Source: a virus. From it: 31,011 bases of DNA. Position numbers and translations under genes: made by a program. The notes beneath the pieces were generated by a model, which was not told the origin of the DNA, ran no database searches, and saw only the letters and a list, made by a program, of their open reading frames with translations. Positions 5,457 through 30,844 of this stretch are shown piece by piece (within the stretch, counting starts at the first letter, position 1; every line of letters begins with the position of its first letter). The stretch covers positions 1-31,011 of IMG/VR virus record IMGVR_UViG_3300025000_000315; one strand, given 5' to 3'.

Positions 5457-5475
5457 AATAACAGGAGGCAAGACA

Positions 5476-7540: not shown

Positions 7541-7541
7541 T

Positions 7542-7575: not shown

Positions 7576-7587
7576 GCGAGGAAAAAT

Positions 7588-9296: not shown

Positions 9297-9314
9297 ACTC
9301 ATTAGGAGGAAAGA

Positions 9315-9839: not shown

Positions 9840-9855
9840 AAAATAAAAGGACAAA

Positions 9856-10522: not shown

Positions 10523-10523
10523 A

Positions 10524-12599: not shown

Positions 12600-12600
12600 T

Positions 12601-12951
12601 ATGTGGATTTTAGACGGAAACCAAATACCAACACCACAAAGAAAAGTTATTAAAAACGACGTTGTAGCCGTTGTGCACCGGACGCTCGACGGAGGATTCA
12701 GCCGGGACTTTGTGGGAAGCGAAAAAAAGATTTTTGAATGCGAATATACGCCGATTAGCGCGGAGGATTATGAGGTTATTAGAGCCGAGTACGAAGATCA
12801 GCGCGACAACGGCACGGCTAAAATATTGACGATTAGCGACGACGATTTTACATTTAGCGCCGGAGTTATTATTTCAATGCCGGAAATGAATTTTAATTTT
12901 GCCAACCATTACAATTACAGAAACGTAAAAATAAACTTTACGGAGGTTTGA
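12601..12951 (+). CDS. Distal-tail-type minor tail protein
   Basis: 116 residues, ATG after AGGAGGA. Beta-rich ('MWILDGNQIPTPQRKV', 'EYTPISAEDYEVIRAEYEDQ', 'NYRNVKINFTEV'). The overall pattern is that of short tail proteins that read like half of a Dit or lambda gpM-type protein and join the tail tube to the hub. It is located between the tape measure and the hub, where Dit is expected. I cannot assign a precise family. Confidence 0.5.
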   Translation: MWILDGNQIPTPQRKVIKNDVVAVVHRTLDGGFSRDFVGSEKKIFECEYTPISAEDYEVIRAEYEDQRDNGTAKILTISDDDFTFSAGVIISMPEMNFNFANHYNYRNVKINFTEV

Positions 12952-12952
12952 G

Positions 12953-14980: not shown

Positions 14981-14983
14981 ATA

Positions 14984-15002
14984 TGTTAAAATAGAGGCAA
15001 AT
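14984..15002 (+). promoter_or_regulatory. Possible extended -10 promoter and ribosome-binding site
   Basis: TG-T-TAAAAT (14984-14992) resembles an extended -10, but no good -35 is present. GAGG at 14994-14997 serves the ATG at 15003. Confidence 0.28.
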
Positions 15003-15443
15003 ATGAAAATAATTTGTTCACAATGCAAGCGACACATCGGGACCATAAAGATAGGGTTTTGGGAATACGAAAAAAAGAACGGCACAAGAGAAATGAAGTT
15101 TATAGAAGATCCAAACGGGACGGACGTTAAGTATATTCAAGAACGAGGAATACTATCTTGCCGTAAAAGATTTGACGGGCATTGGGGGTTCAGTTGCGGA
15201 ATTTGCGGAAATGACAGCCGGATCGCCGAAGCGGAAAAAGGAATAATTGGAACAAAAAAAGTTGATAGCAGAGGACGAATTACCGTCAGAATACCAACCA
15301 AAAGAGATATAGCGAGGGTTTTTAGAAACTTGGAGAAAAGGCCAACCGGCGTAAAAGAAGCCAGCCCGGAAAAAAGAGTAGTAGATAATTTTGAAATAAC
15401 AACCGAAAAAGGGGAGGAAAAATATGTCTTACAATGCAATTGA
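15003..15443 (+). CDS. Zinc-ribbon phage protein
   Basis: 146 residues. The N-terminal C5-x2-C8 ('ICSQCKRHIG') and a later pair in 'GFSCGICGN' form a likely two-part zinc ribbon, and the C-terminal third is charged and helical. I do not recognise a function; similar small zinc proteins are common between tail and lysis genes. It overlaps the following fibre gene by 20 bases. Confidence 0.6.
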   Translation: MKIICSQCKRHIGTIKIGFWEYEKKNGTREMKFIEDPNGTDVKYIQERGILSCRKRFDGHWGFSCGICGNDSRIAEAEKGIIGTKKVDSRGRITVRIPTKRDIARVFRNLEKRPTGVKEASPEKRVVDNFEITTEKGEEKYVLQCN

Positions 15444-16044
15444 TTTTGTTTATGGAGAACAACCGAGCGCTACAAAATGGAACTACTTAGGTTCAAACGA
15501 CGCCGGGTTTAAGGACGGGACAAATATTGACGATGACGCGATTATAGCAAGACATATTGCCGACAATGCGGTAGGGACCGCGCAGATCGCAAACAACGCC
15601 ATAACAGCCGATAAGATTGCGGCCGGAGCGGTAGGAGCCGACGAAATAGCCACGAACGCCGTAGGAACGGCCGAGATCGCGAACGACGCCGTTACGGTGG
15701 ACAAATTAGCGGACAACTGTATTGCTCAACCACAATTACAAAACGATTGCGTTGGGATAAACGAGATTGAGGACGGGTTGTTTCCTTTCAACAATCAAGG
15801 ACCTTACACCAACTTAAATATTATTTTTAACATATTAAATACGACAAACACGGGTACTACTTGGACGTTTCCTTCAGCAGGACAATTTGCTTCTTCTTCA
15901 ACTTATGCGGTAGTAGCGACGGTACAGGATGGATCAGCCGCATCAGGGATTGTGGCAACAATTAAAAGTAAAGCGGCAGGGAGTTGTATTGTTCAAAACA
16001 GTTGGGGGACGATTGCAACCTCTATGATCGCGATGGGGAGGTAA
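15424..16044 (+). CDS. Tail fibre / tip protein with short helical repeats
   Basis: 206 residues, ATG after GGGGAGG. Residues ~35-105 hold imperfect ~9-residue repeats of the type NAVGTAQIA / NAITADKIA / NAVGTAEIA, as found in the slender trimeric stems of many phage fibres. The last ~85 residues ('TTWTFPSAGQFASSST', 'VQDGSAASGIVATIKS') form a beta-rich head that is the likely receptor-contact domain. It sits after the hub and before lysis, the usual place for a tail-tip fibre. Confidence 0.68.
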   Translation: MSYNAIDFVYGEQPSATKWNYLGSNDAGFKDGTNIDDDAIIARHIADNAVGTAQIANNAITADKIAAGAVGADEIATNAVGTAEIANDAVTVDKLADNCIAQPQLQNDCVGINEIEDGLFPFNNQGPYTNLNIIFNILNTTNTGTTWTFPSAGQFASSSTYAVVATVQDGSAASGIVATIKSKAAGSCIVQNSWGTIATSMIAMGR

Positions 16045-16047
16045 ATT

Positions 16048-16293
16048 ATGACACGAAATTGGAACATTAAATCAAAGAAGGATTATAACGAGGAATATTT
16101 TGAGGTGGTGGTTGATTTGCCGGTACACGAAACGATCAACCCGGCCGGAGTTATGGTAGATAATTTAGTTATGGTTAACAAACAAAGAATGAAAAAATAT
16201 TTAGAAGAAGGTAAAACGGAGGATCAGGCAATTAAGGGCGTGTTAGACGAAACGGCCGACGAGCATTGCGATCCTTCAAAGTTTACAATTTAA
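16048..16293 (+). CDS. Hypothetical small acidic protein
   Basis: 81 residues following the fibre gene by three bases. Contains 'EYFEVVVDLPVHETINPAG' and a helical C terminus. No family, membrane segment or metal motif is recognised. Position suggests a fibre accessory or a protein of the late operon. Confidence 0.6.
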   Translation: MTRNWNIKSKKDYNEEYFEVVVDLPVHETINPAGVMVDNLVMVNKQRMKKYLEEGKTEDQAIKGVLDETADEHCDPSKFTI

Positions 16294-16306
16294 GCAGGAG
16301 GGAATT

Positions 16307-16558
16307 ATGACCGGGATCGAACAAACATTAGCGAACGCCGGAGTGCTTGGAGCAGTAGTACTCTGGTTTATGCTTAGATCAGAAAAACGAACGGACAATT
16401 TAACGAAGGCGCTGAACAACAATAATTTATTGGTTGTTTATTTGATTGAAACAGTAGCAAATTGCCCGAACAACACGACGGCCGCAAGTTCAATGCGCGA
16501 CGAACAAATGGCCCGGATCAAACAAGAGATTTTAGGCCAACAAAACGCCGAAGGTTAA
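16307..16558 (+). CDS. Single-pass membrane protein, BhlA-like holin candidate
   Basis: 83 residues with a strong AGGAGGG site. One hydrophobic segment at residues ~8-23 ('LANAGVLGAVVLWFML') is followed by a charged tail ('RSEKRTDNL') and a second weakly hydrophobic stretch. This is the layout of BhlA/UviB-type small holin-like proteins. It starts a block of small membrane genes ending at the amidase, so a role in lysis is likely but inferred. Confidence 0.55.
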   Translation: MTGIEQTLANAGVLGAVVLWFMLRSEKRTDNLTKALNNNNLLVVYLIETVANCPNNTTAASSMRDEQMARIKQEILGQQNAEG

Positions 16559-16559
16559 A

Positions 16560-16658
16560 ATGACAGAAAAGGTTATACAGATTGGGATTATATTTTACTT
16601 CGTTGCAACCTCAACAGTTTTATGCTATTATTTGATTAAACAAGCGAGGAACAAATGA
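16560..16658 (+). CDS. 32-residue single-pass membrane peptide
   Basis: ATG at 16560, one base after the previous stop, and ending in an ATGA overlap with the next gene. The peptide is MTEKVIQIG followed by a ~17-residue membrane span ('IIFYFVATSTVLCYYLI') and a KQARNK tail, an N-out/C-in-like charge pattern. Tight coupling on both sides argues that it is real. It could be a mini-holin, an antiholin or a membrane anchor. Confidence 0.55.
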   Translation: MTEKVIQIGIIFYFVATSTVLCYYLIKQARNK

Positions 16659-16969
16659 ACGAACTATTTACATTGGTTTTTTTACACTTTCTCGGCGACT
16701 TTCCATTACAAGGAAAATATTTAAGCGATAAGAAATGCGAATTACCGATAGTTATGATAATTCACTGTTTTATTTACGGCGGATTATTTTTTTTATTTGC
16801 GGATTTATCAATTTATTTAACGGGAATTATTATGGCAAGCCATTACGCGATCGACTACGCTATGGCCTGCAAATTTATTAAAATGCGCCCGGACTACAAG
16901 TTGGCGCTTGACCAATATTTACACGTTTTATTACTTGTGATTATTTGGTTTTTTAGTCAAGGAGTATAA
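16655..16969 (+). CDS. DUF3307-like membrane protein, lysis block
   Basis: 104 residues, three or four membrane spans. The start 'FTLVFLHFLGDFPLQGKYLS' followed by 'KK' and an 'IIHCFIYGGLFFLF' span matches the DUF3307 pattern of an 'hxLgDFxLQ' motif, then Lys-Lys and a His-containing helix. Its function is unknown in that family. Its ATG overlaps the upstream peptide's stop, and its TAA overlaps the amidase ATG. It may form the membrane hole that releases the amidase. Confidence 0.62.
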   Translation: MNELFTLVFLHFLGDFPLQGKYLSDKKCELPIVMIIHCFIYGGLFFLFADLSIYLTGIIMASHYAIDYAMACKFIKMRPDYKLALDQYLHVLLLVIIWFFSQGV

Positions 16970-17832
16970 TGTTTATACAAAGCCCGAATTACACAAAGGG
17001 ACGAGGCGGAAAACCGGCAAGCCTGATTATTATACATTGGTTCGGAGTAGGAACGATTGACGGCGCTATTGCTTCTTTCCAGAACCCGGCACGAGAGGCC
17101 AGCGCACATTATTTAATATCAGACAGCCGCTTGGTTCAAATGGTGGACGAAGGCGATACAGCGTGGCACGCGGGGGTTTATGCGGTCAATCAAATATCAA
17201 TCGGGATAGAACACGACGCCAACCCGGACAAACAGTTGAGCGAGGCAAGTTATCAAACTTCGGGAAAATTGGTTAGAGAAATTTGCGCCCGGCACAGCAT
17301 ACCAATCGACAGAGAACACATTAAGGGCCACAACGAGATCAAGGCAACGCAATGTCCTGGAACAATAGACATAAATAAAATAATTGAAATTGCAAAAGGA
17401 GGCAGCAATATGGATAAGTTTCACGAGTTTGTTATTGCGACGATCAGACGAGCGCGCGAGGTTATGCTTAGCGGTCCGCTTGACAATCCAGGCGCGGAAG
17501 CGGACGCCAAAAGGATTGAAGCCGAATACGCCGCCGGAAATCAATACGTTTTAGAGCAGTTACTTTTTGACGTTTACACGAAGGCGGGGAATTATCAACT
17601 TATGACAAAGGCGGAGCATAATACGATTATGGCAAAAGCGGAAGCCGACGCCAAAGAAACGGCGGATCAGGCTTACAAAGACGGTGCGGCAGGCGTGGTT
17701 TGCCCGGAATGCCCGGAACAAGTCATTTGCGAACCTTGCCCGGAATGCAAACCGGAGATCAAAGTTATTACTGATTTGAGCGGACCGGAAATAATAAAAT
17801 TTGGAATTAAAAAATGGTTGGGGATAGCATAG
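16969..17832 (+). CDS. N-acetylmuramoyl-L-alanine amidase (endolysin) with Cys-rich tail
   Basis: 287 residues. Residues ~1-140 are an Amidase_2 (T7 lysozyme/PGRP-like) domain. Likely zinc ligands are H23 ('LIIIHWFG'), H121 ('KGHNE') and C129 ('CPG'), with 'SAHYLI' (H47) and 'AWHAG' also conserved. It cuts the bond between N-acetylmuramic acid and L-alanine in peptidoglycan. A helical linker (~150-240) leads to five cysteines at 245, 248, 254, 257 and 260 in CPEC-type motifs, then an amphipathic end (GIKKWLGIA). There is no signal peptide, so a holin is needed. The ATG overlaps the upstream TAA. Confidence 0.88.
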   Translation: MFIQSPNYTKGRGGKPASLIIIHWFGVGTIDGAIASFQNPAREASAHYLISDSRLVQMVDEGDTAWHAGVYAVNQISIGIEHDANPDKQLSEASYQTSGKLVREICARHSIPIDREHIKGHNEIKATQCPGTIDINKIIEIAKGGSNMDKFHEFVIATIRRAREVMLSGPLDNPGAEADAKRIEAEYAAGNQYVLEQLLFDVYTKAGNYQLMTKAEHNTIMAKAEADAKETADQAYKDGAAGVVCPECPEQVICEPCPECKPEIKVITDLSGPEIIKFGIKKWLGIA

Positions 17833-17877
17833 GAAGCGACAGGGGGATCTTCCTTCGGACGGCGTAATTTAATAATT

Positions 17878-18372
17878 GTGCCGCCGAAAAGAAGGGAGGC
17901 CAAGCCTATAGAAACTTTTTTAACGTTGGCATTACTTCAGATAAGTCAGATTATGCCGGTTACAATGCCGCCAACGGCAAAACAAGCAAAAGTAGTCGAG
18001 GTCAATCAATTTTTGGAAAAACCTTTGGTTGCGGAAACTGAATTAACACCGCAACCCGTGAAAGGGAATCACAAGTTTGCTAACGGTAACTGCACAAAGT
18101 ATGTTGCCGATAAAAGAGGCGGACTGCCGTGGTCGGGTAATGCCAACAGGTGGCTCTATAATGCTCCAAGATTTAATTACGAGGTGGGAGATGAGCCGGA
18201 GGTCGGAGCAATTCTTGTAACAAACGAGGGTTGGGTAGGACACGTTGCTTATGTAGAAAACATAGACAGCGACCGGATCACAATTAGCGAGATGAATTAC
18301 AAGGGATTTGGGGTCGTTTCACAAAGGACAATTTCCAAAAATTACAGTGCGATTAAGGGTTACATTTATTAA
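17878..18372 (+). CDS. CHAP-domain peptidoglycan hydrolase with hydrophobic N terminus
   Basis: 164 residues if started at GTG 17878. The C-terminal ~100 residues are a CHAP (amidase/endopeptidase) domain with C72 ('NGNCTKYVA'), H122 ('GWVGHVAYVE') and E138/N140 ('ISEMNYKG') as expected catalytic residues. The N terminus has a hydrophobic segment ('IETFLTLALLQISQIM') and could be a signal or membrane anchor. The GTG has no ribosome-binding site, while AGGGAGG at 17893-17899 is spaced for an ATA codon at 17908; the true start is uncertain. It may be a second endolysin or a secreted lysin. An imperfect hairpin precedes it at 17831-17854. Confidence 0.75.
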   Translation: MPPKRREAKPIETFLTLALLQISQIMPVTMPPTAKQAKVVEVNQFLEKPLVAETELTPQPVKGNHKFANGNCTKYVADKRGGLPWSGNANRWLYNAPRFNYEVGDEPEVGAILVTNEGWVGHVAYVENIDSDRITISEMNYKGFGVVSQRTISKNYSAIKGYIY

Positions 18373-18388
18373 ATAAGAGGAGGCGCAA

Positions 18389-18571
18389 ATGAAAACAGGG
18401 TTAGTTACAACCGAGTTTTGGGTGGTAATTGCCACCTTTTTGACCGCTATCTTCGGAGGCGATCAAAACGAATGGGTAAACGCAATACAAGCAATCGTCG
18501 CCGGCGCGGCCGGAGTTGCCTACATTGTCTATCGTATCCAATTGAAAATTGCCGCGAACAAAAAAAAATAA
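18389..18571 (+). CDS. Two-span holin-like protein
   Basis: 60 residues with a strong AGAGGAGG site. Two membrane spans (about 10-23 'FWVVIATFLTAIFGG' and 32-51 'AIVAGAAGVAYIVYRIQL') and a Lys-rich C terminus are the standard class II holin layout. It is the last gene of the late block, directly before a strong terminator, and follows two peptidoglycan hydrolases. It is the best holin candidate of the window. Confidence 0.68.
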   Translation: MKTGLVTTEFWVVIATFLTAIFGGDQNEWVNAIQAIVAGAAGVAYIVYRIQLKIAANKKK

Positions 18572-18578
18572 GGCAAGG

Positions 18579-18615
18579 AAAAAGAAGGTCAACTCACGCA
18601 CGGCCTTCTTTTTTA
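18579..18615 (+). terminator. Rho-independent terminator of the late operon
   Basis: AAAAAGAAGG and CCTTCTTTTT pair around a ~13-base loop and run into six T's. It closes the late gene block. Confidence 0.82.
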
Positions 18616-18635
18616 GTTATCCACAGGACGAGGGC

Positions 18636-18671
18636 TTTACAAAATAAAATAAAAGGCGCATAATAAAAGCA
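18636..18671 (+). promoter_or_regulatory. Promoter P1 (shared phage motif)
   Basis: -35 TTTACA (18636-18641), 17-base spacer, -10 CATAAT (18659-18664), start near 18671. The bases CTTTACAAAAT around the -35 and GCGCATAAT around the -10 recur in promoter P2 at 19665. Confidence 0.72.
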
Positions 18672-18781
18672 CTATGAATGATCCAAAAATAACAATTTGT
18701 GTTTTTGTAAAGATCGACAATTTTATTGTTGGTTCGTTACATAGTCCAAATGAGTCCACCGGGTAACCGGAGGGCTTTTTT
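18671..18781 (+). ncRNA. Short transcript unit (~110 nt), possible leaderless 30-residue peptide
   Basis: The unit runs from the start predicted by P1 to the terminator at 18753-18781. It holds an ATG at 18674, only three bases from the predicted start, opening a 30-codon frame (MNDPKITICVFVKIDN...) that stops at 18764-18766, inside the terminator loop. It could be a small regulatory RNA, a leaderless peptide, or an attenuated leader of the regulator operon. Confidence 0.42.
18753..18781 (+). terminator. Terminator/attenuator in the regulator leader
   Basis: AGTCCACCGG and CCGGAGGGCT pair around GTAA (one A-A mismatch, one G-U), followed by six T's. Readthrough is needed for P1 to express the downstream genes. 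Confidence 0.62.
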
Positions 18782-19077
18782 GGTTGTTGAAAGCAGGACG
18801 GATTAAACTCTTTTCTGCTTCTAATAACTAAACTTATTGGAAATTCGTGGCACAACTCACCGATAGAGGTAATGAGCGAATTAAAAGAATTTGATTACAA
18901 GTTCGGGGACGTTAGACAACTACGGATACCTCACTCACGGGCAGACAGTTAGGACACGGGCAAGCGCCTAAACACTAACTGCCCAGAGAAGGAAACGGCT
19001 GGGAACGCACTATGGGATTAGGCAGTTGGGAACAGGTTCCATAAGAATAGAATACATAGCATACAAAAAGGAGTAGT
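18782..19077 (+). other. ~300-base leader with competing RNA structures, no convincing gene
   Basis: GGGC (18939-18942) plus AGTTAG (18947-18952) pair with CTAACTGCCC (18975-18984). The same AACTGCC can instead pair with GGCAGTT (19021-19027), enclosing a CCCAG/CTGGG hairpin (18982-18986/18999-19003). TTAGG/CCTAA (18949-18953/18967-18971) is a third alternative. AAGCAG/CTGCTT forms a hairpin upstream. A 26-codon frame at 18872-18952 (MSELKEFDYKFGDVRQLRI...) has a GAGG site and faintly resembles the start of an antirepressor. A weak promoter (TTGGGA 19026, TAGAAT 19048) may also be present. I recognise no known riboswitch or intron. Confidence 0.45.
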
Positions 19078-19230
19078 ATGGAAGGAAGGGAAAAATGGTT
19101 GCCAAGAACAATCAGGATGCCCGACGATTTATGGTATAAACTGGCTTTAGAGTCAGCAAGAAGGAAGATACCAACGTCGGAATTAGTGAGAGAATTAATT
19201 GTAAAACAATTGGAAACGGAGGAGGGTTGA
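19078..19230 (+). CDS. Ribbon-helix-helix DNA-binding regulator
   Basis: 50 residues, ATG after AAGGAG. 'RTIRMPDDLWYKLALESA' followed by 'RKIPTSELVRELIVKQLE' is the classic ribbon-helix-helix form (one strand and two helices, CopG/Arc-like), which binds DNA as a dimer through the strand. The long structured leader and the repeated promoter motif nearby suggest it may control the early promoters, but the operator is unknown. Its stop is five bases before the next ATG. Confidence 0.8.
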   Translation: MEGREKWLPRTIRMPDDLWYKLALESARRKIPTSELVRELIVKQLETEEG

Positions 19231-19234
19231 GGAA

Positions 19235-19477
19235 ATGGAAGAACAGCCATTATATAAGTTTGTAGAAATTAACGGCAAGAAGTATTGCGATCACAAGGTA
19301 TTTGGATTACAGGACGCGGAATGGTTCAGGGATCACAAAGTTAATCCGGAGGACGAGGCGATACCGGTGTTTCAAAGAGATAACAAAGTTATGATCCACC
19401 CGTTTTTTATGGACGCGGAGAACAGAGAAAAATACAAAAATTATTACGAAAGGCAGAAGGAGTTAAAAAATGATTGA
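19235..19477 (+). CDS. Hypothetical protein
   Basis: 80 residues, ATG after GGAGGG. Contains 'KFVEINGKKYCDHKVFGLQD' and a Tyr/Lys/Glu-rich end. No family or membrane segment recognised. It overlaps the next gene by eight bases, in the same early operon as the ribbon-helix-helix regulator. Confidence 0.65.
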   Translation: MEEQPLYKFVEINGKKYCDHKVFGLQDAEWFRDHKVNPEDEAIPVFQRDNKVMIHPFFMDAENREKYKNYYERQKELKND

Positions 19478-19658
19478 AACTGGGAATAGGATTTACTTTA
19501 TGGACGCGGAAAAACAGTATTTATATTTTTATAGGAAATCAAACGGTATTATAAAAGGGAGTTTCGACGAGTCGGAACAGCCGTACAACAAAAACGAAAT
19601 GGCGATTTTGGAGCAATTGCGCGGCGACGACTACTGTTTTAACGATTTAGATAATTAA
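19470..19658 (+). CDS. Hypothetical protein
   Basis: 62 residues. Aromatic-rich start ('IYFMDAEKQYLYFYRKSNG'), acidic end. Unknown function. It is the last gene of the short regulator operon and stops seven bases before promoter P2. Confidence 0.6.
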   Translation: MIETGNRIYFMDAEKQYLYFYRKSNGIIKGSFDESEQPYNKNEMAILEQLRGDDYCFNDLDN

Positions 19659-19664
19659 AAAAAC

Positions 19665-19700
19665 TTGACAAAATTAAAACCACAGCGCATAATTAAACTA
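19665..19700 (+). promoter_or_regulatory. Promoter P2 (shared phage motif)
   Basis: -35 TTGACA (19665-19670), 17-base spacer, -10 CATAAT (19688-19693), start near 19700. It is the strongest-looking of the three related promoters and precedes the antirestriction and recombination genes. Confidence 0.78.
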
Positions 19701-19773
19701 CGATCAGCAAGCGCCCATTGGCCCAACAAAAAACAAAGTCAGATGAGGCGAATATAGATCTAAATGGAGGACT

Positions 19774-19802
19774 GGAACGCCGGGACAACCGGCTTCCGGT
19801 TC
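19774..19802 (+). repeat. Three CCGG arms with alternative hairpins in the P2 leader
   Basis: AACCGG-CTT-CCGGTT (19787-19801) is one hairpin. GAAC-g-CCGG (19775-19783) can instead pair with CCGG-TTC (19796-19802). The 155-base leader between P2 and the ATG at 19855 has no supported gene, so this structure may regulate elongation or RNA stability, or be an operator. Confidence 0.4.
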
Positions 19803-19854
19803 AAACACAAGGGGAGGGACGTTAACAATCAAAAAAATAATAGGAGCAAACATT

Positions 19855-20121
19855 ATGACAAAATCAGAATTTAAGTTAGAAGAATTTAATAATTGCCGAC
19901 CGAATTTGGTTTTAGGACAGATCAGTGCTTTTGATATTGAATACGTGGACTTGCCGAAGGATTTTTGGCAGAACACCGGAGATACGTTAGTATTTAAGAC
20001 GAACAAAACGGACTTCCAAACCGGGATTGAATTAGGCAATTTTGCGGTACAAATGAGCGCCGACGAAATACATATGATAAAGGACGGCGACGACACGATT
20101 ATAAGATTATGGTTTGATTAA
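19855..20121 (+). CDS. Hypothetical early protein
   Basis: 88 residues, first gene after promoter P2, ATG after AGGAG. Beta-rich ('LGQISAFDIEYVDLPKDFWQ', then 'ELGNFAVQMSADEIHM'), acidic. No family recognised. As the first early gene before ArdA-like protein it is a candidate anti-defence or host-takeover factor, by position only. Confidence 0.62.
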   Translation: MTKSEFKLEEFNNCRPNLVLGQISAFDIEYVDLPKDFWQNTGDTLVFKTNKTDFQTGIELGNFAVQMSADEIHMIKDGDDTIIRLWFD

Positions 20122-20144
20122 GAACTAAAAAATAGGAGGGGATT

Positions 20145-20342
20145 TTGAGAAAACCGATTAAGGAGAAAACGATTTGGCCAAAAATAACAACTTGGGCATT
20201 CTTTATTTTTTTAATGATCTTTTTTGCTTGGATTATGGCAAAGACATTTTTGGACGCGGTGGACACGACTTACGAGAGCCGATGTCCGGTATGGTACGCC
20301 GGAGATGAACAAGCGATTAACGAATGCCAAGAAAGGAAATAA
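20145..20342 (+). CDS. Small single-pass membrane protein
   Basis: 65 residues, TTG start supported by AGGAGGGG at 20135-20142. A basic N terminus (RKPIKEK) precedes one membrane span ('WAFFIFLMIFFAWIMA') and a ~30-residue C-terminal part with two cysteines ('SRCPVWYAG', 'INECQERK') that would face outside and could form a disulfide. Function is unknown; early membrane proteins of this size often act in superinfection exclusion. Confidence 0.6.
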   Translation: MRKPIKEKTIWPKITTWAFFIFLMIFFAWIMAKTFLDAVDTTYESRCPVWYAGDEQAINECQERK

Positions 20343-20633
20343 ATGGATAAAAGTAAAGCAGAACAAATGAGCGAGGAAAATAGTTTAGACGTTGATATAA
20401 ACCAAGCGTACATCGATTTAGTAGGAGAAGAGTATGCGACAGCCGACGCGGCAGAAGAAGCATATCAAGGAGAATACGGAAACGATGAAGATTTTGTTGA
20501 ACAATTATTGGAAGATTGCGGCGATATTCCAAAGGATCTACCGGCCTATGTTCATATTGATTGGGTAGGAACAGCCAGAGATGTAATGATGGATTATAGC
20601 GAACAAGACGGATATTATTTTAGAGATTTATAA
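20343..20633 (+). CDS. ArdA-like antirestriction protein, short form
   Basis: 96 residues and very acidic, with about 27 Asp/Glu against five Lys/Arg. The C-terminal two thirds fit the ArdA pattern: 'AEEAYQGEYGNDEDFVEQLL', then 'YVHIDWVGTARDVMMDY' and 'GYYFRDL'. ArdA proteins mimic bent DNA and block type I restriction enzymes. Tn916 ArdA is about 166 residues, so this one carries a single repeat/domain. It follows P2 in the early operon, as expected for a protein needed soon after infection, and overlaps the next ATG by one base. Confidence 0.72.
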   Translation: MDKSKAEQMSEENSLDVDINQAYIDLVGEEYATADAAEEAYQGEYGNDEDFVEQLLEDCGDIPKDLPAYVHIDWVGTARDVMMDYSEQDGYYFRDL

Positions 20634-20950
20634 TGACAGAAAAACACAAACAGCAAATTAGAGATTGGGAAAAACGAAACCCGGACAAGATCAAGGAGTA
20701 TAGAAAACGATATTACGAGAAAAACAAAGAATCAATAAGCGAAAGTCAACGTGAGAATTATAAATTAAAAAGGAAATACATTCGAGCGGTCCAAAAAAAA
20801 TACAGAGATTCAATTAAGGATCAAGAATGGTTTAAAATCAGGAACCGAAAAAACGCGAAGGAGTGGAGGGAAAAGAACCGGGAAAGATATTTAGAATACA
20901 AAAGAAAATATAGAGCCAAGCAAAAGGCATTAAAAGGAGTAGAATGTTAA
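20633..20950 (+). CDS. Very basic coiled-coil protein
   Basis: 105 residues, dominated by Lys, Arg, Glu and Tyr in repeats such as 'WEKRNPDKIKEYRKRYYEKN' and 'WREKNRERYLEYKRKYRA'. These look like long helices that could bind DNA or RNA. Similar repeats occur next to HNH domains in phage nucleases, but no HNH motif is present. It overlaps both neighbours slightly and sits between the antirestriction and annealing genes. Function unknown. Confidence 0.55.
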   Translation: MTEKHKQQIRDWEKRNPDKIKEYRKRYYEKNKESISESQRENYKLKRKYIRAVQKKYRDSIKDQEWFKIRNRKNAKEWREKNRERYLEYKRKYRAKQKALKGVEC

Positions 20951-22661: not shown

Positions 22662-23237
22662 ATGCCAAAGTTTAGAGCAAGTTATAGTGTTTTGAGCGCT
22701 TGGGAAAGGGGAGATTGGCAAACGGCGATACAGATGTATTTTAAGTTAGACACTCCAACCAACGCCGCAATGGAAGCCGGGAAGGAATGGCACGAAAAAT
22801 GGGCGAAGCACATAGAACAAAATAAGACGATACCAAATGAATTTAATTTTAAGGATGTGATATTAAAAGAACCAAAGACGGAATTGAAATTAGTTATTGA
22901 ATTAGATGATTGGTTAGACCTTGTAGGGGTTATAGATTGCCACGACGGGGACACGATTTACGAATGGAAGACCGGCGTACAAAGTTCGGTTGCTTATTCA
23001 AACGGACAGCAGGGCGGCGTATATGGGCTATTGGCGGCCAAGACGGGAATACCGGCCAAGAAATGTTACATTGGACATTACAATCAGCACAGCAAGAAGC
23101 CGGACGTTTCTATGTTCTGGTTAACCGACAAGGTTATTGAGGAAGCGGAAAACTGGATCATTACGATCGCAGGGGAAATGTACGAGTATTTTAATACTAA
23201 TAATTTATGGGAACAGTTGGGAAAGAAGGAAGGATAA
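22662..23237 (+). CDS. PD-(D/E)XK exonuclease, RecB/Cas4-like
   Basis: 191 residues, ATG after AGGAGGC. The nuclease core is legible: H44 ('AGKEWHEKW'), D92 ('LVGVIDCHDGD'), E101-x-K103 ('IYEWKTG') and a Q-x3-Y motif around 117-121 ('QGGVYG'). These residues bind metal and define the RecB-like subfamily. Such nucleases usually resect DNA ends so that Erf can anneal the strands. No cysteines form a Cas4-type iron-sulfur cluster. Confidence 0.82.
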   Translation: MPKFRASYSVLSAWERGDWQTAIQMYFKLDTPTNAAMEAGKEWHEKWAKHIEQNKTIPNEFNFKDVILKEPKTELKLVIELDDWLDLVGVIDCHDGDTIYEWKTGVQSSVAYSNGQQGGVYGLLAAKTGIPAKKCYIGHYNQHSKKPDVSMFWLTDKVIEEAENWIITIAGEMYEYFNTNNLWEQLGKKEG

Positions 23238-23889: not shown

Positions 23890-24423
23890 TTGAGCAGAGT
23901 AGTTATTGAACTAACAGAGGACGAACAAGCGCGAATGATCGAATGGTGCAAGAAGGTTCAAGCCGACAAGCAGGCGAGGAACTCCATAGACAAGCGTGTG
24001 GACAAGCGGTTCAGTTCTTTTGATATTATGCTTTTGGGACTTTGCGGCGAATACGCGATCTGCAAGCACTTGGGAATACCTTACAATTTTAGGCGCTGGG
24101 ACGAACAAGGCAAAGGCGACGTTACGCATAATGGTTACGAGATAGAAGTTAAAACAAACAAATACCGCGACGACCTATTAAAGATACCGGAGTGGCAAGT
24201 AGACTGCCCGGCCGATATTTATGTATTAGCGCAACAACTTTACAGATTAAAACTGTTTGAGATTTTAGGTTACGCGACAAGAGAAACATTTAGAGCATTG
24301 AGGTACAAAAAGACATTTCCTGGATACGAGGATAAGCCGATGTTCGTTATGGATTATTTAGATTTGGAACGGCCGGAATACTTTAGATCAGCGTTATTAT
24401 TACAAAGAGGAGCGCAATGCTAA
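23890..24423 (+). CDS. PD-(D/E)XK restriction-endonuclease-like protein
   Basis: I start it at TTG 23890 (MSRVVIELTED), since AAGGAG at 23879-23884 is correctly spaced and the GTG at 23884 overlaps that site. 177 residues. The nuclease core is 'LCGEYAICKHLGIPYN' (E54), 'GKGDVTHNGYEIEVKT' (D77, E86-x-K88), a clean PD-(D/E)XK set like those of type II restriction enzymes and transposon nucleases. No methyltransferase partner is beside it. It may act in host DNA breakdown or as a phage-borne restriction nuclease. It overlaps the ferredoxin gene by seven bases. Confidence 0.7.
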   Translation: MSRVVIELTEDEQARMIEWCKKVQADKQARNSIDKRVDKRFSSFDIMLLGLCGEYAICKHLGIPYNFRRWDEQGKGDVTHNGYEIEVKTNKYRDDLLKIPEWQVDCPADIYVLAQQLYRLKLFEILGYATRETFRALRYKKTFPGYEDKPMFVMDYLDLERPEYFRSALLLQRGAQC

Positions 24424-24590
24424 AAATCAATTATTCAAAATGTGTTGGTTGCGAAACTTGCGTTAGGACATACCCGGATCATTTTCAGGTGGTTTATGGC
24501 GCCGTCAGCATTACAAACCCGGACGGTCCGAACGAGGCGGCCGCAGTTTGCCCGAACGAAGCGATAGAGGTGCAAGATGAGAAAAATTAA
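24417..24590 (+). CDS. Small ferredoxin, single [4Fe-4S]
   Basis: 57 residues, ATG after AGAGGAG, overlapping the nuclease stop by seven bases and the next gene by 14. 'SKCVGCETCVRTYPD' gives C9-x2-C12-x2-C15 and 'AAAVCPNEAIEV' gives C45-Pro, the four ligands of a bacterial [4Fe-4S] ferredoxin of the short (Fer4-type) class. It carries one electron at low potential in the cytoplasm. No partner reductase or radical-SAM enzyme is visible in the window. Ferredoxin genes are rare in phages and are usually host-derived metabolic genes. Confidence 0.8.
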   Translation: MLKINYSKCVGCETCVRTYPDHFQVVYGAVSITNPDGPNEAAAVCPNEAIEVQDEKN

Positions 24591-25362
24591 GGTAGCAATT
24601 TTAGGATCAAGCGGAATGCTTGGAAGTATGGTTAAAAATGTTTTAGAACGCGACGACAGAATACAATTATTTTGCCCGAGCCGAGAGGACTTTGATGCCG
24701 CTTGTGTGAGCGTTTCACAATTACAGACGGCTACTTACGATTGCGATTGGATTATTAACTGCATTGGGGTTTTGAACAAATACATTGACGAAAAGAACCC
24801 GGAGAGCGTAAAGAACGCGATCAGAGTCAATGCGCTATTTCCATACACTTTAGCAGAAACAGGAAAGAAGATCATTCAGATCGCGACCGATTGCGCCGGA
24901 GAGCCGGACACTTATGGAATGACAAAAAAATTAGGAGAGGTTAAGGCGCCAAACTTTATCAATATCCGCTGTTCAATTGTAGGTCCGGGAAACCCGACCG
25001 GGTTATTGGATTGGTTTTTGTATCAGCCAATGAGCGCGATAGTACAAGGATATACGAAAGCGATTTGGAACGGGGTTACGACATTGGCATTTGCAAAACT
25101 TTGTTATGGAATAGTTACGAAGAATTTAACCTTGCCAAACCAAAACAATTTTACGCCACACGACGCGGTTACAAAAAAATTGATGCTTGAAATGTTCAAA
25201 AAATACTTTTCAAGAGAGGATATTAAAATAGTGTCAGTTGAAAACGGAACAGATAGACAGGTAGAAAAGGGCGACGACGACTTATGGAGATTGGCAGAAT
25301 ACGACCAAGTGCCGACAGTAGAATACCTAATAAAAGAATTAGTAAATTATATGGAGGGTTAG
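24577..25362 (+). CDS. RmlD-like nucleotide-sugar reductase (extended SDR)
   Basis: 261 residues. An N-terminal NAD(P) fold with 'VAILGSSGMLGSMVKN' (GxxGxxG) is followed by 'DWIINCIGVLNKYIDEKNPE', the family's conserved Asn-Cys-x-Gly region, and 'TYGMTKKLGEV' with the catalytic Tyr-x3-Lys. This matches dTDP-4-dehydrorhamnose reductases, which finish L-rhamnose-type deoxysugars. The substrate here is uncertain. The ATG overlaps the ferredoxin end by 14 bases, and its stop abuts the next gene. Confidence 0.78.
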   Translation: MRKIKVAILGSSGMLGSMVKNVLERDDRIQLFCPSREDFDAACVSVSQLQTATYDCDWIINCIGVLNKYIDEKNPESVKNAIRVNALFPYTLAETGKKIIQIATDCAGEPDTYGMTKKLGEVKAPNFINIRCSIVGPGNPTGLLDWFLYQPMSAIVQGYTKAIWNGVTTLAFAKLCYGIVTKNLTLPNQNNFTPHDAVTKKLMLEMFKKYFSREDIKIVSVENGTDRQVEKGDDDLWRLAEYDQVPTVEYLIKELVNYMEG

Positions 25363-26121
25363 ATGAAAATTTTAATCACTGGGATTGCCGGAACTTGGGG
25401 TAAAGAGTTCACAAAACAATTATTAGCCGAAGGTCACGAAGTTTTAGGGATTGACGTTACGGAGCAAGCGTTAGCGGCGTTTCAGCACGAATACCCGAAC
25501 ATAGATACTTTGCTTATGGATATTGAAGACGTCGATTTTAAGCAATTACCGGTGGACGTTGTTATTCACTTGGCGGCACACAAGCACATCGACATTTGCG
25601 AAAAGAACGTATTCGAAGCCGTGGAAAACAATGTTACGAAGACAGCGAAATTATTTGACAACGCGCGCAGAAATGGAGTAAAGATTTTATTCGTCAGTAC
25701 CGACAAAGCCGTGGAACCGGCGAGCGTTTATGGATTTACGAAAGCATTGGGAGAACATTTAGCGTGGGAAGCAGGCGGACAGGTGGCAAGAAGTGGCAAC
25801 ATTATGGGAAGCAATGGGTCGGTTTTAACAGTTTGGGATAAGGCGATTAAAGAACACAGACCGATCAACATCACAGATCCGGAAATGACAAGATATTTTA
25901 TAGAAATTGAAACGGCCGTAAAAAGAGTTTGGGACGGGTTCAACGCCGGCGAACGGCTTATCATTGTTGCTATGGGCGAGCCGACACGATTAGGCGACCT
26001 TTTGGACGAGGTTTTGACATTACACGGATTTTCACAAGAAAATTACCCGGCCGGAATTACAATCGCCGGACGACGACCGGGCGAGAAACAGCACGAACGA
26101 CTGACTTGGGACAATGAGTAA
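25363..26121 (+). CDS. CapD/PseB-like nucleotide-sugar 4,6-dehydratase or epimerase
   Basis: 252 residues. NAD(P) motif 'ILITGIAGTWGKEF', then 'VVIHLAAHKHIDICEKNVFE', 'ILFVSTDKAVEPASVYGFTK' (catalytic Tyr-x3-Lys), 'ARSGNIMGSNGSVL', 'ITDPEMTRYFIEIETAV' and 'GRRPGEKQHERLTW'. These are the full set for polysaccharide-biosynthesis SDRs such as UDP-GlcNAc 4,6-dehydratase. The protein is compact, since related enzymes have about 330 residues. With the RmlD-like enzyme it could make a deoxysugar nucleotide. It overlaps the next gene by eight bases. Confidence 0.82.
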   Translation: MKILITGIAGTWGKEFTKQLLAEGHEVLGIDVTEQALAAFQHEYPNIDTLLMDIEDVDFKQLPVDVVIHLAAHKHIDICEKNVFEAVENNVTKTAKLFDNARRNGVKILFVSTDKAVEPASVYGFTKALGEHLAWEAGGQVARSGNIMGSNGSVLTVWDKAIKEHRPINITDPEMTRYFIEIETAVKRVWDGFNAGERLIIVAMGEPTRLGDLLDEVLTLHGFSQENYPAGITIAGRRPGEKQHERLTWDNE

Positions 26122-26389
26122 AAAATTAAAAAAGATTTATTTAGACAAAGGGATCACATACTGCGAACTTAGATTACCGCATAAATGTTGGGGAAACGCC
26201 GGATTGAGTTTTGCTCATAAAAGAAAACGAATTGAGTATAAAAGTTGCCCGGAAAAATTGGATACTTTTGAGGAAACGTTATTACTATGCCCGGAGGCGC
26301 ATAACCTTATAGAATACGGGGACAAGAAAAACACCGGTAGAGAACTAACAGCGATAGCATTTAACCAATTAAGAGGAGAAGGAAAATGA
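26114..26389 (+). CDS. HNH-like protein with an altered zinc site
   Basis: 91 residues. The pattern 'ITYCELRLPHKCW', 'LSFAHKRKRI' and 'LLLCPEAHNLIE' is that of a phage HNH-like family with CxE...C, AHk.kR and CxxCHxxiE. The second Cys of the last motif is Ala (C59-P-E-A62-H63), so the zinc site may be damaged or different. It sits inside a sugar-modification operon, which suggests insertion or a role in DNA transfer. It overlaps both neighbours. Confidence 0.6.
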   Translation: MSKKLKKIYLDKGITYCELRLPHKCWGNAGLSFAHKRKRIEYKSCPEKLDTFEETLLLCPEAHNLIEYGDKKNTGRELTAIAFNQLRGEGK

Positions 26390-27321
26390 AAATATCTTAT
26401 CTTGGAAACTTCAAATTTCCGTGGTGTACGGAAGTTCACATTAGCAAAACATTAGAGGCGTTGGGACATACGGTTATTCGGTTACAAGAGGACGAAGCCG
26501 ATATGAAAGTTGTTTTGGATAACGCTAACACAAGCGATATGTTCTTATGGACAAGGACGCCGGGAATGTTGCGATTTAACGGGTGGGAAATGATTAGCAA
26601 AATCAAAGTATTAAAGGTCAGTTACCACCTTGATTTATATGTCGGGATCAGCCGGGAAAATTGGTTGGACGATGAGGCATTTTTCCATACGGATTATGTT
26701 TTCCAAGCCGACGGAGATCCGCACAGTATGGAGGTTTTTAAGCAAAAGAATGTCAACGCGATTTGGCAGAAGCCGGGAGTTTACGCGCCGGAATGCACGA
26801 TCGCAGAACCGGCCGCCGACTTAATAACGGATATTGCTTTCATAGGAAGCCACGAACGATACCACGAAGAATGGCCTTACAGAATGCAGTTGGTAGAATG
26901 GTTAGGAAATACTTACAAGGAACGATTTAAAGCCTTTCCAACGCCGACAAGCGGGGTAATAATGTGCGAGCGGTTGAACCAACTTTGTGCAAGCGCCAAG
27001 ATAATAATTGGCGACGCGCTTTGCAAGGACTTTACGCATACAAATTATTGGAGCAACCGGGTTTATGAGATCACCGGGCGCGGAGGATTTATTATTCACC
27101 CGGTAATTGAAGGATTGAAAGAGGAGTTTGGAAACAATATTGGTTATTACGATTATGGGAACTTTGGACAATTAAAATCCTTGATTGATTATTACATTTC
27201 GGACAACGCGGCAAGGGAAGAATTAAGAAAAAAAGGCCACGAATTGACAAAGAATAATTACACTTTTACACACCGGTTACAAGCGATGTTTGAGATACTT
27301 GAAAAGGAAGGTGCGATTTGA
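26386..27321 (+). CDS. CgeB-like glycosyltransferase (GT-B)
   Basis: 311 residues. 'NRVYEITGRGGFIIHP' and 'YYDYGNFGQLKSLIDYYI' are the donor-site motifs of the Glyco_trans_1_2 family (CgeB-like), with 'DIAFIGSHERYHEEWPYRMQ' in the middle linking the two domains. CgeB of Bacillus acts on the spore outer layer. It probably transfers the sugar made by the upstream enzymes. The four-base overlap with the next gene suggests coupling. Confidence 0.8.
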   Translation: MKISYLGNFKFPWCTEVHISKTLEALGHTVIRLQEDEADMKVVLDNANTSDMFLWTRTPGMLRFNGWEMISKIKVLKVSYHLDLYVGISRENWLDDEAFFHTDYVFQADGDPHSMEVFKQKNVNAIWQKPGVYAPECTIAEPAADLITDIAFIGSHERYHEEWPYRMQLVEWLGNTYKERFKAFPTPTSGVIMCERLNQLCASAKIIIGDALCKDFTHTNYWSNRVYEITGRGGFIIHPVIEGLKEEFGNNIGYYDYGNFGQLKSLIDYYISDNAAREELRKKGHELTKNNYTFTHRLQAMFEILEKEGAI

Positions 27322-27986
27322 AACAGATTATTAACGTATTTTATAAGAATAAAAACTTACCTTTTTGGATCAGGCCAGAATACAAGGACAAAAAAAAGAT
27401 TATAGACATACAGGTTTTGGGAGAGATATTTGACCAAAATGTTTATAAGTTAACGCCGGAACATTTTAAGACGGGGACGATCATTGATTTGGGATCAAAC
27501 ATAGGAGCAGTTGCTATACAGGCGGCGCAACTCGGAGCAATCAAAATAATTGCGATTGAGCCGAACAAATCAAACTTAGCATTATTAGAGGACAACTTGA
27601 GAGAAAATAATTGCGAAGCAGAAATATTAAGAGTAGCAATTGGAGCAGAACCAGGAGAAACTTCGATCACGGACGAAGCCGGCAACAGCAAAACAGGAGA
27701 AGAAGGGGAAAAGGTAAACGTTACAACGCTTGAAGAAATAATTAGTTTCCATTTTGCGGACCAAGAAATTGACGTTTTGAAAATAGACGTAGAAGGGGAC
27801 GAGTACAAAATCCTATTAAGCACGCCAAAGGAAGCATTGGAAAAGATCAGAGTTATTACAATGGAGTTTCACGCGACAGACGAGGAAACATTTGGAAAAT
27901 TGATTTGTAAATTGAGCGAAAGTTTCGTAGTTGAAACAATAGGATCATTTGACAAGGGCGGACAAATAACAGGGAGAAGGTACTAA
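27318..27986 (+). CDS. FkbM-family methyltransferase
   Basis: 222 residues, TTG start overlapping the previous stop, after AAGGAAGG. The SAM motif is 'TIIDLGSNIGAVAIQAA', with the acidic 'IAIEPNKSNL' end and 'VLKIDVEGDEYKILLSTP', the family's IDVEGxE signature. FkbM-type enzymes O-methylate sugars or polyketides. Here it could methylate a sugar on the glycan built by neighbouring transferases. SAM could come from the MetK encoded two genes downstream. Confidence 0.83.
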   Translation: MKQIINVFYKNKNLPFWIRPEYKDKKKIIDIQVLGEIFDQNVYKLTPEHFKTGTIIDLGSNIGAVAIQAAQLGAIKIIAIEPNKSNLALLEDNLRENNCEAEILRVAIGAEPGETSITDEAGNSKTGEEGEKVNVTTLEEIISFHFADQEIDVLKIDVEGDEYKILLSTPKEALEKIRVITMEFHATDEETFGKLICKLSESFVVETIGSFDKGGQITGRRY

Positions 27987-28658
27987 ATGACTTACAAGAT
28001 CGTAATACCTATTTATACAAACGAACACTTGGCAGATAACTGCTTAAAAAGCATTGATGTTGATTGGAAACATTTGATTATAGTCGACAATAGCAAAGAT
28101 AGTTTTTGCAAGAAATACGAGGGACGAGGCGCGACGATTTATTATTACCCGGAAAACATAGGAGTATCAAGGGCTTGGAATTTGGGATTAAAAGCGGACG
28201 CGGATTGGACTTTTTTTGTTTCGATTGCCGTTGCGTTTCCAAACGGATTTAGCGAGGTTTTGGCGGAATTAAAAAACGCAAACGACTATTTATTCTGTTC
28301 GGACTTGGCGTGGCATTGTAACGCGATTAGTCGGGAATGCGTTAAGGCCGTTGGGTACTTTGACGAAAACTTTTACCCGGCTTACTACGAGGACACGGAT
28401 TATGTCAGGCGAATGCAGTTATTAGGAATACCAGTTACGGTAGTCAGGACAAGCGCTTACAGCGCCGTGCAATCTAACTCAACGGAAAGCGACAGAGGGT
28501 TGCCGGTACATTACCTAAATTTGGAAAAATACTATATCGAAAAATGGGGAGGAAAACCCGGACACGAAACATTTGACAAGCCATTTGGGGACAAGGGGAT
28601 CGGGTATTGGGTCGGACAAACTATTAACACATTAAAACAGCGATATGGATTGGAGTAG
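27987..28658 (+). CDS. Family-2-like glycosyltransferase (GT-A)
   Basis: 223 residues directly after the methyltransferase stop. Starts 'YKIVIPIYTNEHLADNCLKS', has 'HLIIVDNSKDSF' and 'NIGVSRAWNLGLKADADWTF', and ends with 'YYEDTDYVRRMQLLG', the catalytic-region ED motif of GT2 enzymes. A usual DxD is not obvious (a VSIAV stretch takes its expected place), so the donor site may be altered. It follows the FkbM gene as part of the glycan operon. Confidence 0.78.
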   Translation: MTYKIVIPIYTNEHLADNCLKSIDVDWKHLIIVDNSKDSFCKKYEGRGATIYYYPENIGVSRAWNLGLKADADWTFFVSIAVAFPNGFSEVLAELKNANDYLFCSDLAWHCNAISRECVKAVGYFDENFYPAYYEDTDYVRRMQLLGIPVTVVRTSAYSAVQSNSTESDRGLPVHYLNLEKYYIEKWGGKPGHETFDKPFGDKGIGYWVGQTINTLKQRYGLE

Positions 28659-28661: not shown

Positions 28662-29675
28662 ATGAAAACAGCCGAAGCAGTTATGCCCGGACACCCGGAC
28701 AAAGTGGCGGATCAAATTAGCGACGCAATACTCGACGAATACTTACGGAGAGATCCATACGCGAGGGTAGCGGTGGAAACAATGGGCGGACACGGCAAAC
28801 TCTATATTTGTGGAGAGGTTACAGCCAAAGGAAAACCATTATACAAAAACGAAATCGTTGAAATAGCGAGAAGGGTTTACGCGAGGATAGGTTATAAAGA
28901 TAGATTAAAAATACAGGTCAATATTGTTAACCAAAGCCCGGACATCTCGCAAGGAGTCGAGATCGGAGGAGCAGGAGATCAAGGAATAATGGTTGGATAT
29001 GCCTGTAATGAAAACGAGCAAATGATACCACAGGAATTATATTTGGCGCGCAAACTTATTATGAGAATTTACGAGGACGGGATTTTTGGCCCAGACGGAA
29101 AATGCCAAGTTACGCTCACAGAGGACAACCAAATTGATACAGTTGTTTTATCAGTACAAACGCACGACGTTACAGATATTAAAAAAGGTTTTGTAGAAAA
29201 GTTTTTAGGACAGTCGGTTAAAAATTATCACTTCAATCCGACAGGAAAATTTGAGATTGGAGGGTTCGCGGCCGACACGGGATTAACAGGCCGAAAGTTA
29301 GCGGTGGATAATTACGGTCCGCAGATACCAGTCGGAGGAGGAGCGTTTAGCGGAAAAGATCCGAGCAAGGTAGACAGATCAGCCGCTTATATGGCAAGAA
29401 GGGTTGCGATTGACGCGTTACGATTTATGGAAGCGGAAAACGTTACAGTTAAATTAGCGTATTCGATAGGAGTAGCAAAGCCGGTTATGGCAATGGTCGA
29501 TATAAACGGCAAAGAACAAGAGGACACGGAGAAAAAAGCAAAATGGTTGATGGCGAAGCATTATGACTTCACGCCAGAGGGGATTATTAGACAATTAGAT
29601 TTACGCAAACCGATTTACGAGATCACTGCCAGAGAAGGACATTTTGGGAATGAAATATTTAGTTGGGAGAAATAA
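28662..29675 (+). CDS. metK: S-adenosylmethionine synthetase
   Basis: 337 residues, shorter than the ~384 of the E. coli enzyme but with all three domains. Family motifs: 'PGHPDKVADQISDAILD' (H11, D13, K14), 'GAGDQGIMVGYA' (around 103-114), 'FNPTGKFEIGG', 'TGLTGRKLAVDNYG' and 'GGGAFSGKDPSKVDRSAAY' (226-243, the phosphate-binding loop). It makes SAM from ATP and methionine, probably as a tetramer. No obvious catalytic residue is missing. A phage-encoded copy in this operon could feed the FkbM enzyme or keep SAM high during infection. Confidence 0.93.
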   Translation: MKTAEAVMPGHPDKVADQISDAILDEYLRRDPYARVAVETMGGHGKLYICGEVTAKGKPLYKNEIVEIARRVYARIGYKDRLKIQVNIVNQSPDISQGVEIGGAGDQGIMVGYACNENEQMIPQELYLARKLIMRIYEDGIFGPDGKCQVTLTEDNQIDTVVLSVQTHDVTDIKKGFVEKFLGQSVKNYHFNPTGKFEIGGFAADTGLTGRKLAVDNYGPQIPVGGGAFSGKDPSKVDRSAAYMARRVAIDALRFMEAENVTVKLAYSIGVAKPVMAMVDINGKEQEDTEKKAKWLMAKHYDFTPEGIIRQLDLRKPIYEITAREGHFGNEIFSWEK

Positions 29676-29809: not shown

Positions 29810-30844
29810 ATGAGGATAGGGCTAATTTGCCGCGCCGATAACGGAGGATTGGGAGCGCAAACTCACGACTTTTATAGGAATATGAACCCGGCCAAGACGC
29901 TCGTAATAGACATTAGCCACCTTACGGGTTTTGAAAACCATTTAGAAAGATACCCGGACGCAAAGGTCCACAAAGGGTTCTTAGATAATGAAGCAATCGA
30001 ATGGATTACAGATAATGTTGATGTTATTTTCACGATCGAAATACCTTACAATTACGCGCTATTTGAAACCGCAAGAAGGAAAGGCGTCAAGACGTTTTTA
30101 CAATACAATTATGAGTTTTTGGATTATATGAGAGAGCCGGAGTTGCCTTACCCGGACGTTTTAATGGCGCCAAGCCATTGGAACTTCGGAAAGGTATTAG
30201 AGAAATTTGGGAGCAAAGCGATTGTTGATTATTTACCGGTGCCGGTTGACCGGACAATATTTAAGTACAGGAAGCGCGAGCAGGCCAAAACGTTTATTCA
30301 CGTCGCCGGGCATACTCTTTATGAGGACAGGAACGGGACGGAGATAGTAATAGAAGCGTTGAATTATTTGAAAAAAGGCGCAAAGATTATAATTTACAGC
30401 CAACACGATTTAGGAATACCAAAAGAAAAAATAGGGAAGTTTCCGCAATACGAACTGGAGATAAGAGAGGGCGATTTTAAGTACCGGGACGAACTTTATA
30501 AAGAAGGGGACGTGTTAATTTTTCCAAGACGATACGGCGGATTATCATTACAGTTAAACGAGGCAATGAGTTCGGGAATAGTGCCGATTATGACAGACGT
30601 TATGCCGCAAAACACGATGTTAAAACAAGAATTATTATTAGCGCCGATACACATTAAACCGATACAAACAAGAGGAGCGGACATAGATTGTTACGGAGTA
30701 GATCCGAGATTGTTAGCATTAAAAATCGACGAGATGACAGGACAGAGGATAGGATATTTGAGCGATTGGTGCAACAAAGAAGCGGAGAAAATAAGTTGGG
30801 AAACAATGAAACCGAAATACGAAAGGTTTTTTGAGGAGGTTTGA
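29810..30844 (+). CDS. GT4-like glycosyltransferase (GT-B)
   Basis: 344 residues, ATG after AGGAGGAG. The N domain starts 'IGLICRADNGGLGAQTHDF' and the C domain carries 'FPRRYGGLSLQLNEAMSSGI', the family's donor-binding region with its Glu. The linker segment 'APSHWNFGKVLEKFG' and 'VPVDRTIFKYR' matches GT4 enzymes. It is probably another transferase for the same glycan. Its end is followed by an overlap-free start two bases later. Confidence 0.8.
   Translation: MRIGLICRADNGGLGAQTHDFYRNMNPAKTLVIDISHLTGFENHLERYPDAKVHKGFLDNEAIEWITDNVDVIFTIEIPYNYALFETARRKGVKTFLQYNYEFLDYMREPELPYPDVLMAPSHWNFGKVLEKFGSKAIVDYLPVPVDRTIFKYRKREQAKTFIHVAGHTLYEDRNGTEIVIEALNYLKKGAKIIIYSQHDLGIPKEKIGKFPQYELEIREGDFKYRDELYKEGDVLIFPRRYGGLSLQLNEAMSSGIVPIMTDVMPQNTMLKQELLLAPIHIKPIQTRGADIDCYGVDPRLLALKIDEMTGQRIGYLSDWCNKEAEKISWETMKPKYERFFEEV

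Follow-up and report, generated by a model that had tools for sequence, protein, structure and literature searches.

A single-cluster ferredoxin encoded by a siphophage and a candidate radical-SAM partner in the same phage

The stretch of viral DNA analyzed here (the window) is the linear IMG/VR virus record IMGVR_UViG_3300025000_000315, which is 31,011 bases long and reads as one siphophage segment with its genes on the plus strand. The structural and other genes in the window include those for a portal/head-morphogenesis protein, a head protease, the major capsid protein, a collagen-like tail protein, the tape measure, an endolysin, and an Erf annealing protein, and an accessory block extends from ∼22.6 kb to the window end. 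A terminase gene was not found within the 31,011 bases, and the record is probably incomplete. A Mu Com-like zinc ribbon is encoded in the head gene block (5235-5444; PF10122, E 1.5e-4, just below the cut-off); the Com family is known for regulating the translation of a DNA-modification gene. An endolysin/amidase (16969-17832) and a CHAP-domain protein (17878-18372), both for cell-wall lysis, are encoded by adjacent genes, and positions 20343-20633 code for a 96-amino-acid C-terminal ArdA-like antirestriction domain (PF07275, E 2.4e-7, over the cut-off).

Table 1. Genes surrounding the ferredoxin gene in the window and genes on the upstream extension of the sister contig; negative positions lie upstream of window base 1.
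Feature	Position	Strand	Evidence
ParB-like	-5272 to -4631	sister contig minus strand	
Radical-SAM protein, 420 aa	-4631 to -3369 (sister contig 7316-8575)	sister contig minus strand	CGHNCAYC, NF033668
TAGT/HMC-type DNA glycosyltransferase	-3372 to -2587	sister contig minus strand	PF20691, phrog_842
Small terminase (TerS) and large terminase (TerL)	after glycosyltransferase, block ends -758	sister contig minus strand	
Putative PD-(D/E)XK nuclease, 177 aa	23890..24423	+	E54, D77, E86-V-K88 motif
Predicted single-cluster [4Fe-4S] ferredoxin, 57 aa	24417..24590	+	Fer4_13, PDB 1dwl, AF2 model
RmlD/CapF-like SDR (nucleotide-sugar 4-keto-reductase type)	24577..25362	+	RmlD_sub_bind E 7e-4, below cut-off
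PseB/FnlA/CapE-like nucleotide-sugar dehydratase/epimerase	25363..26121	+	Polysacc_synt_2 E 7.7e-57; PseB E 1e-31
Glycosyltransferase	26386..27321	+	Glyco_trans_1_2 E 6e-12; phrog_28745
FkbM-family SAM methyltransferase	27318..27986	+	fkbM_fam E 1.3e-24, over cut-off
Glycosyltransferase (GT2-like)	27987..28658	+	phrog_29879 E 4e-20
MetK, S-adenosylmethionine synthetase	28662..29675	+	TIGR01034 317.8 bits, cut-off 309.4
Glycosyltransferase group 1	29810..30844	+	Glyco_trans_1_4 E 2e-6, over cut-off

It is near certain that the 57-amino-acid product is a genuine single-cluster ferredoxin, complete as the initial annotation had it. In profile searches the protein exceeded the cut-off of Fer4_13 (PF13370; 30.7 bits compared to 24.5; E 5.1e-7) and likewise those of Fer4 and Fer4_15, and phmmer matched it to Desulfomicrobium ferredoxin I (1dwl; E 1e-5). 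Its only cysteines are C9, C12, C15, and C45, all four predicted to ligate one [4Fe-4S] cluster; we infer the cluster type and the redox potential. A single copy of the pattern CxxCxxC(x4)P...CPxxAI is present in the window, whereas 100 shuffles produced none. A tyrosine occupies the position at which the Thermotoga and Desulfovibrio ferredoxins have a non-ligand cysteine. A bacterial-type ferredoxin fold is confidently predicted by an AF2 model built from nine input sequences (pLDDT 91.4), for which the Thermotoga maritima ferredoxin (1vjw) was the top solved match in both Foldseek and VIA-align (TM 0.80, Z 8.5). A search of BFVD did not find a fold match to the model.

The ferredoxin gene overlaps its neighbors on both sides, as first noticed, by 7 nt upstream (24417-24423) and 14 nt downstream (24577-24590). 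The nuclease-like, ferredoxin, and SDR genes are in differing frames and each has its own stop, so the arrangement is an overlap and not a fusion; the ferredoxin gene is also preceded by its own Shine-Dalgarno sequence, GAGGAG. The earlier description of nuclease and ferredoxin as fused in translation was thus incorrect. It is possible that the ferredoxin is translationally coupled to its overlapping neighbors. Its codon usage (CAI 0.69, GC3 0.49) resembles that of other phage genes.

For the open reading frame upstream of the ferredoxin gene, the probable start is TTG 23890, which has AAGGAG ahead of it, in preference to GTG 23884. The product of this frame had been called a PD-(D/E)XK nuclease. 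The E...D...ExK pattern, recognized by eye, agrees with that assignment, but matches to DUF5843 (E 6.8e-5, below the cut-off) and phrog_18407 (E 0.001) were weak, and the AF2 model, made from single-sequence input, was not confident (pLDDT 48). The protein is therefore best described as a probable nuclease only. Searches for relatives of the protein, and of the nuclease-ferredoxin gene pair, found none; the single bacterial match to the nuclease-like protein was a TsaD-type protein and was discarded as a chance similarity. A second PD-(D/E)XK-like pattern (D..EWK) is present at 22662-23237, with a weak phage exonuclease match (phrog_69, E 0.006).

To judge from their sequences, the genes 3' of the ferredoxin gene look like a nucleotide-sugar and glycosylation cassette. 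The SDR has the GxxGxxG and YxxxK motifs (identified by eye), and its closest bacterial relative (33% identity, E 3e-25) is encoded after a CapE/FnlA-like gene and before a UDP-GlcNAc 2-epimerase-type gene (neighbors named by eye). Single-sequence scans of viral contigs with the SDR-neighbor epimerase and with MetK returned no match. The visible enzymes of the cassette are of NAD(P)-dependent types and need no ferredoxin, and none of the 49 window genes examined encodes a CxxxCxxC protein.

Proteins with the exact cysteine spacing of the phage ferredoxin were found at ten loci in a scan of ∼85,000 species genomes: six in named Bacilli/Erysipelotrichaceae-type MAGs, three in DPANN archaea, and one in an uncultured bacterium, whose protein groups with the Bacilli/Erysipelotrichaceae-type ones. 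Better matches came from searches of this Bacilli class and of one order within it; in the order, 69 of 196 genomes matched at E ≤ 1e-3, the best at E 5e-10 with ∼40% identity. The ligand cysteines, all four of them, are invariant across the bacterial homologues, which also keep the CP..AI tail, and the TYPD motif is shared (TYPDHF in the phage, TYPDDF in the Bacilli relatives). The ferredoxins of these uncultured Bacilli resemble the phage protein in length and in the pattern CxxCxxC...TYPD.F...VCP.xAI, and in both a tyrosine or arginine replaces the non-ligand cysteine. They differ in genomic setting: at the loci read, the Bacilli genes are stand-alone and chromosomal, typically adjoining a RibU-like transporter gene (transporter assigned by eye), whereas the phage copy has diverged and lies in a phage operon. 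In a 39-row tree, based on a short alignment and on sampling centered on Bacilli, the phage ferredoxin fell inside the Bacilli clade (99/98 support) on a long branch. Within this Bacilli-centered sampling, the nearest relatives found are housekeeping ferredoxins of uncultured Bacilli. The similarities point to an old capture from a Bacilli-type host, a host assignment in which we have moderate confidence. Prophages of related Bacilli showed only remote capsid similarity to the phage.

The rarity of phage ferredoxins, remarked on at the outset, held up in the collections searched. In tblastn searches of 50,697 phage records, neither the phage ferredoxin nor a Bacilli homologue found a relative. 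When the T. maritima ferredoxin was the query, four of the same records matched. Two of these belong to Bacillus phage SP-15, in which the ferredoxin (SP15_183) was already annotated and is the sole bona fide ferredoxin in the set; the other two, MT835911.1 and MT836913.1, are labeled "Bacteriophage sp." and were rejected because they read as fragments of bacterial chromosomes. Scans of IMG/VR viral contigs, which used short patterns of limited sensitivity, revealed no relative; two exact-spacing pattern matches were attributed to chance. PF13370 had no match in 24 records, many of them fragmentary, that encode related major capsid proteins, and no related phage carrying the gene was found in the phage records and viral contigs searched. 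Single-cluster ferredoxins of phages are thus a kind already known but very rare in these collections.

A capsid-based scan recovered a second IMG/VR contig of the same phage, IMGVR_UViG_3300025154_000355, whose sequence matches window positions 4-17537 at 100% identity and positions 15943-19942 at 99.95%. The two share ∼19.9 kb, and the sister contig reaches 5.8 kb further upstream. A radical-SAM gene, sought beyond the window, is present on this extension, 3.4-4.6 kb before window base 1. Together with the ParB, TAGT, TerS, and TerL genes, which overlap or abut (sister contig 4705-9216, minus strand; -5272 to -758), it forms a candidate operon for DNA modification, located upstream of the terminase. 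The assignment of the 420-amino-acid protein to the radical-SAM superfamily is supported by a CxxxCxxC cluster motif (CGHNCAYC at residue 28) and by a match to the NCBIfam PA0069 model (NF033668; E 5.5e-21); the Pfam Radical_SAM match (PF04055; 25.8 bits, E 1.3e-5) was below the cut-off of 29.5. Because the NF033668 score was 75 bits compared to an equivalog cut-off of 360, the protein is considered a PA0069 relative rather than a PA0069 equivalog. The adjoining glycosyltransferase matched PF20691 (TAGT, TET-associated; 43.5 bits, cut-off 27.5) and phrog_842 (beta-glucosyl-HMC-alpha-glucosyltransferase; E 4e-27). In Dulem virus 36 (18801-20738), an unrelated phage, a ParB gene is one gene away from a homologous PA0069-family radical-SAM gene, and phrog_13321 (unknown function) matches the radical-SAM proteins of both phages.

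The initial annotation had suggested that the ferredoxin may feed electrons to a sugar- or DNA-modifying enzyme outside the window, or to a host enzyme. A plausible acceptor outside the window does exist, the PA0069-family protein beside a TAGT/HMC-type glycosyltransferase, and the transfer itself would be as follows. Radical-SAM enzymes contain a [4Fe-4S] cluster that needs a one-electron reductant, commonly ferredoxin or flavodoxin. The phage would own a low-potential single [4Fe-4S] ferredoxin, an old acquisition derived from a Bacilli-type host's housekeeping ferredoxin. In the infected cell, ferredoxin reductases of the host, for example pyruvate:ferredoxin oxidoreductase, would reduce it, and it would donate electrons one at a time to enzymes that depend on [4Fe-4S] clusters and are needed in infection. 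The most likely acceptor would be the phage's own radical-SAM protein, encoded upstream of the terminase beside the DNA-type glycosyltransferase, and the phage MetK may top up the SAM that this protein uses. MetK in the window, the radical-SAM protein, and the ferredoxin give this phage a source of SAM, an enzyme that cleaves it, and a possible donor of electrons. We infer the pairing from the co-occurrence of the two genes in one phage on two overlapping contigs, and a ferredoxin of old host origin that powers mainly the radical-SAM protein, with SAM from MetK, is a tentative reading to which we would give somewhat less than an even chance. The substrate of the radical-SAM protein might be a DNA base or a glycan, or the protein might act in lesion repair like spore photoproduct lyase; the sequence decides for none of these. 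A more specific version, in which the SAM synthetase, the low-potential ferredoxin, and the radical-SAM enzyme form a phage-owned module with which, in an anaerobic host, a hypermodified and glycosylated base or glycan is built, is rather unlikely.

Several observations count against the pairing. Along the known sequence, ∼28 kb separate the radical-SAM gene from the ferredoxin gene; the two belong to different clusters and have not been seen on one contig here. Nor do they co-occur in either comparison phage: Dulem virus 36, with its ParB and radical-SAM genes, lacks a Fer4 match, and SP-15, with its ferredoxin, lacks a Radical_SAM match. The host's own ferredoxin could already suffice for the radical-SAM protein, and the incomplete phage genome may encode further acceptors. 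It is nearly as likely, and a serious possibility in its own right, that the ferredoxin acts as a general AMG, adding to or substituting for the pool of host ferredoxin in the infected cell and having no phage partner dedicated to it; in an anaerobic host its users might include class III ribonucleotide reductase activase, pyruvate:ferredoxin oxidoreductase, and hydrogenase. Such a role is consistent with the closest relatives found being host housekeeping ferredoxins and with the ferredoxin of SP-15, which occurs without a Radical_SAM match; a Nitrospirota virus ferredoxin 86% identical to that of its host has been read likewise (PMC7678222). However, the strong divergence of the phage protein (∼40% identity, long branch) fits a specialized partner at least equally well, and this phage does have a radical-SAM enzyme of its own.

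The immediate neighbors of the ferredoxin gene suggest other roles. Its overlap with the SDR gene, followed by the dehydratase, glycosyltransferases, FkbM methyltransferase, and MetK, would fit an electron-consuming step of the sugar/glycan cassette, catalyzed by the product of a gene between base 31011 and the far end of the sister contig. This seems improbable, since the sugar enzymes in view are of types that use NAD(P), no CxxxCxxC protein is encoded in the window, and unrelated genes are often bundled in phage operons. On the other side, the adjoining and overlapping PD-(D/E)XK-like gene raises the idea that the ferredoxin serves that nuclease as an Fe-S subunit or sensor, the pair being a split counterpart of Fe-S nucleases like Cas4 and AddB. 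We consider this very improbable: the ferredoxin has the makings of a complete, free-standing carrier of the Bacilli type, the searches turned up no relative for the gene pair, and the nuclease fold is itself only putative, with its AF2 pLDDT of 48. Equally hard to credit is a functionless gene, hitch-hiking or decaying. Relatives were absent from the other phages searched, as such a gene might lead one to expect, but the ligands and fold are intact, the gene has its own ribosome-binding site and phage-like codon usage, and it has diverged for long without being lost.

As to the function of phage single-cluster ferredoxins, the partner here has a concrete candidate, the PA0069-family radical-SAM protein of the same phage. 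Because one phage encodes the ferredoxin, the candidate acceptor, and the SAM-making enzyme, a three-protein test is possible. The question raised is whether a phage itself furnishes the electrons that a radical-SAM modification enzyme consumes; if so, this would be a case of phage radical-SAM modification with a dedicated, phage-encoded electron donor. A literature search for phage ferredoxins in connection with radical SAM or DNA hypermodification found no matching paper.

Among characterized ferredoxins, those of T. maritima (1vjw) and the Desulfovibrio type (1dwl/1fxd) have the same fold and four cluster ligands as the phage protein but differ in a longer middle segment and an extra non-ligand cysteine before the proline. 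SP-15 resembles the present phage in combining a single-cluster ferredoxin with sugar and DNA-modification genes. Its DNA is hypermodified and sugar bearing (PMC5977210), and its ferredoxin goes unmentioned in that report. Unlike the present phage, SP-15 has a Bacillus Fer-type sequence, a 222-kb genome, and other neighboring genes, besides lacking a Radical_SAM match. The ferredoxin VP_99 of a Lake Baikal Nitrospirota virus, interpreted as an AMG (PMC7678222), is likewise a 4Fe-S ferredoxin within a virus genome. It differs in its host and in being a recent capture, because it is 86% identical to the host protein. A Prochlorococcus phage ferredoxin is phage encoded too but unrelated to the 57-amino-acid protein, and presumably has the plant-type [2Fe-2S] fold. 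Electron transfer by the Prochlorococcus phage protein has been demonstrated (Campbell 2020, as cited in PMC9973337).
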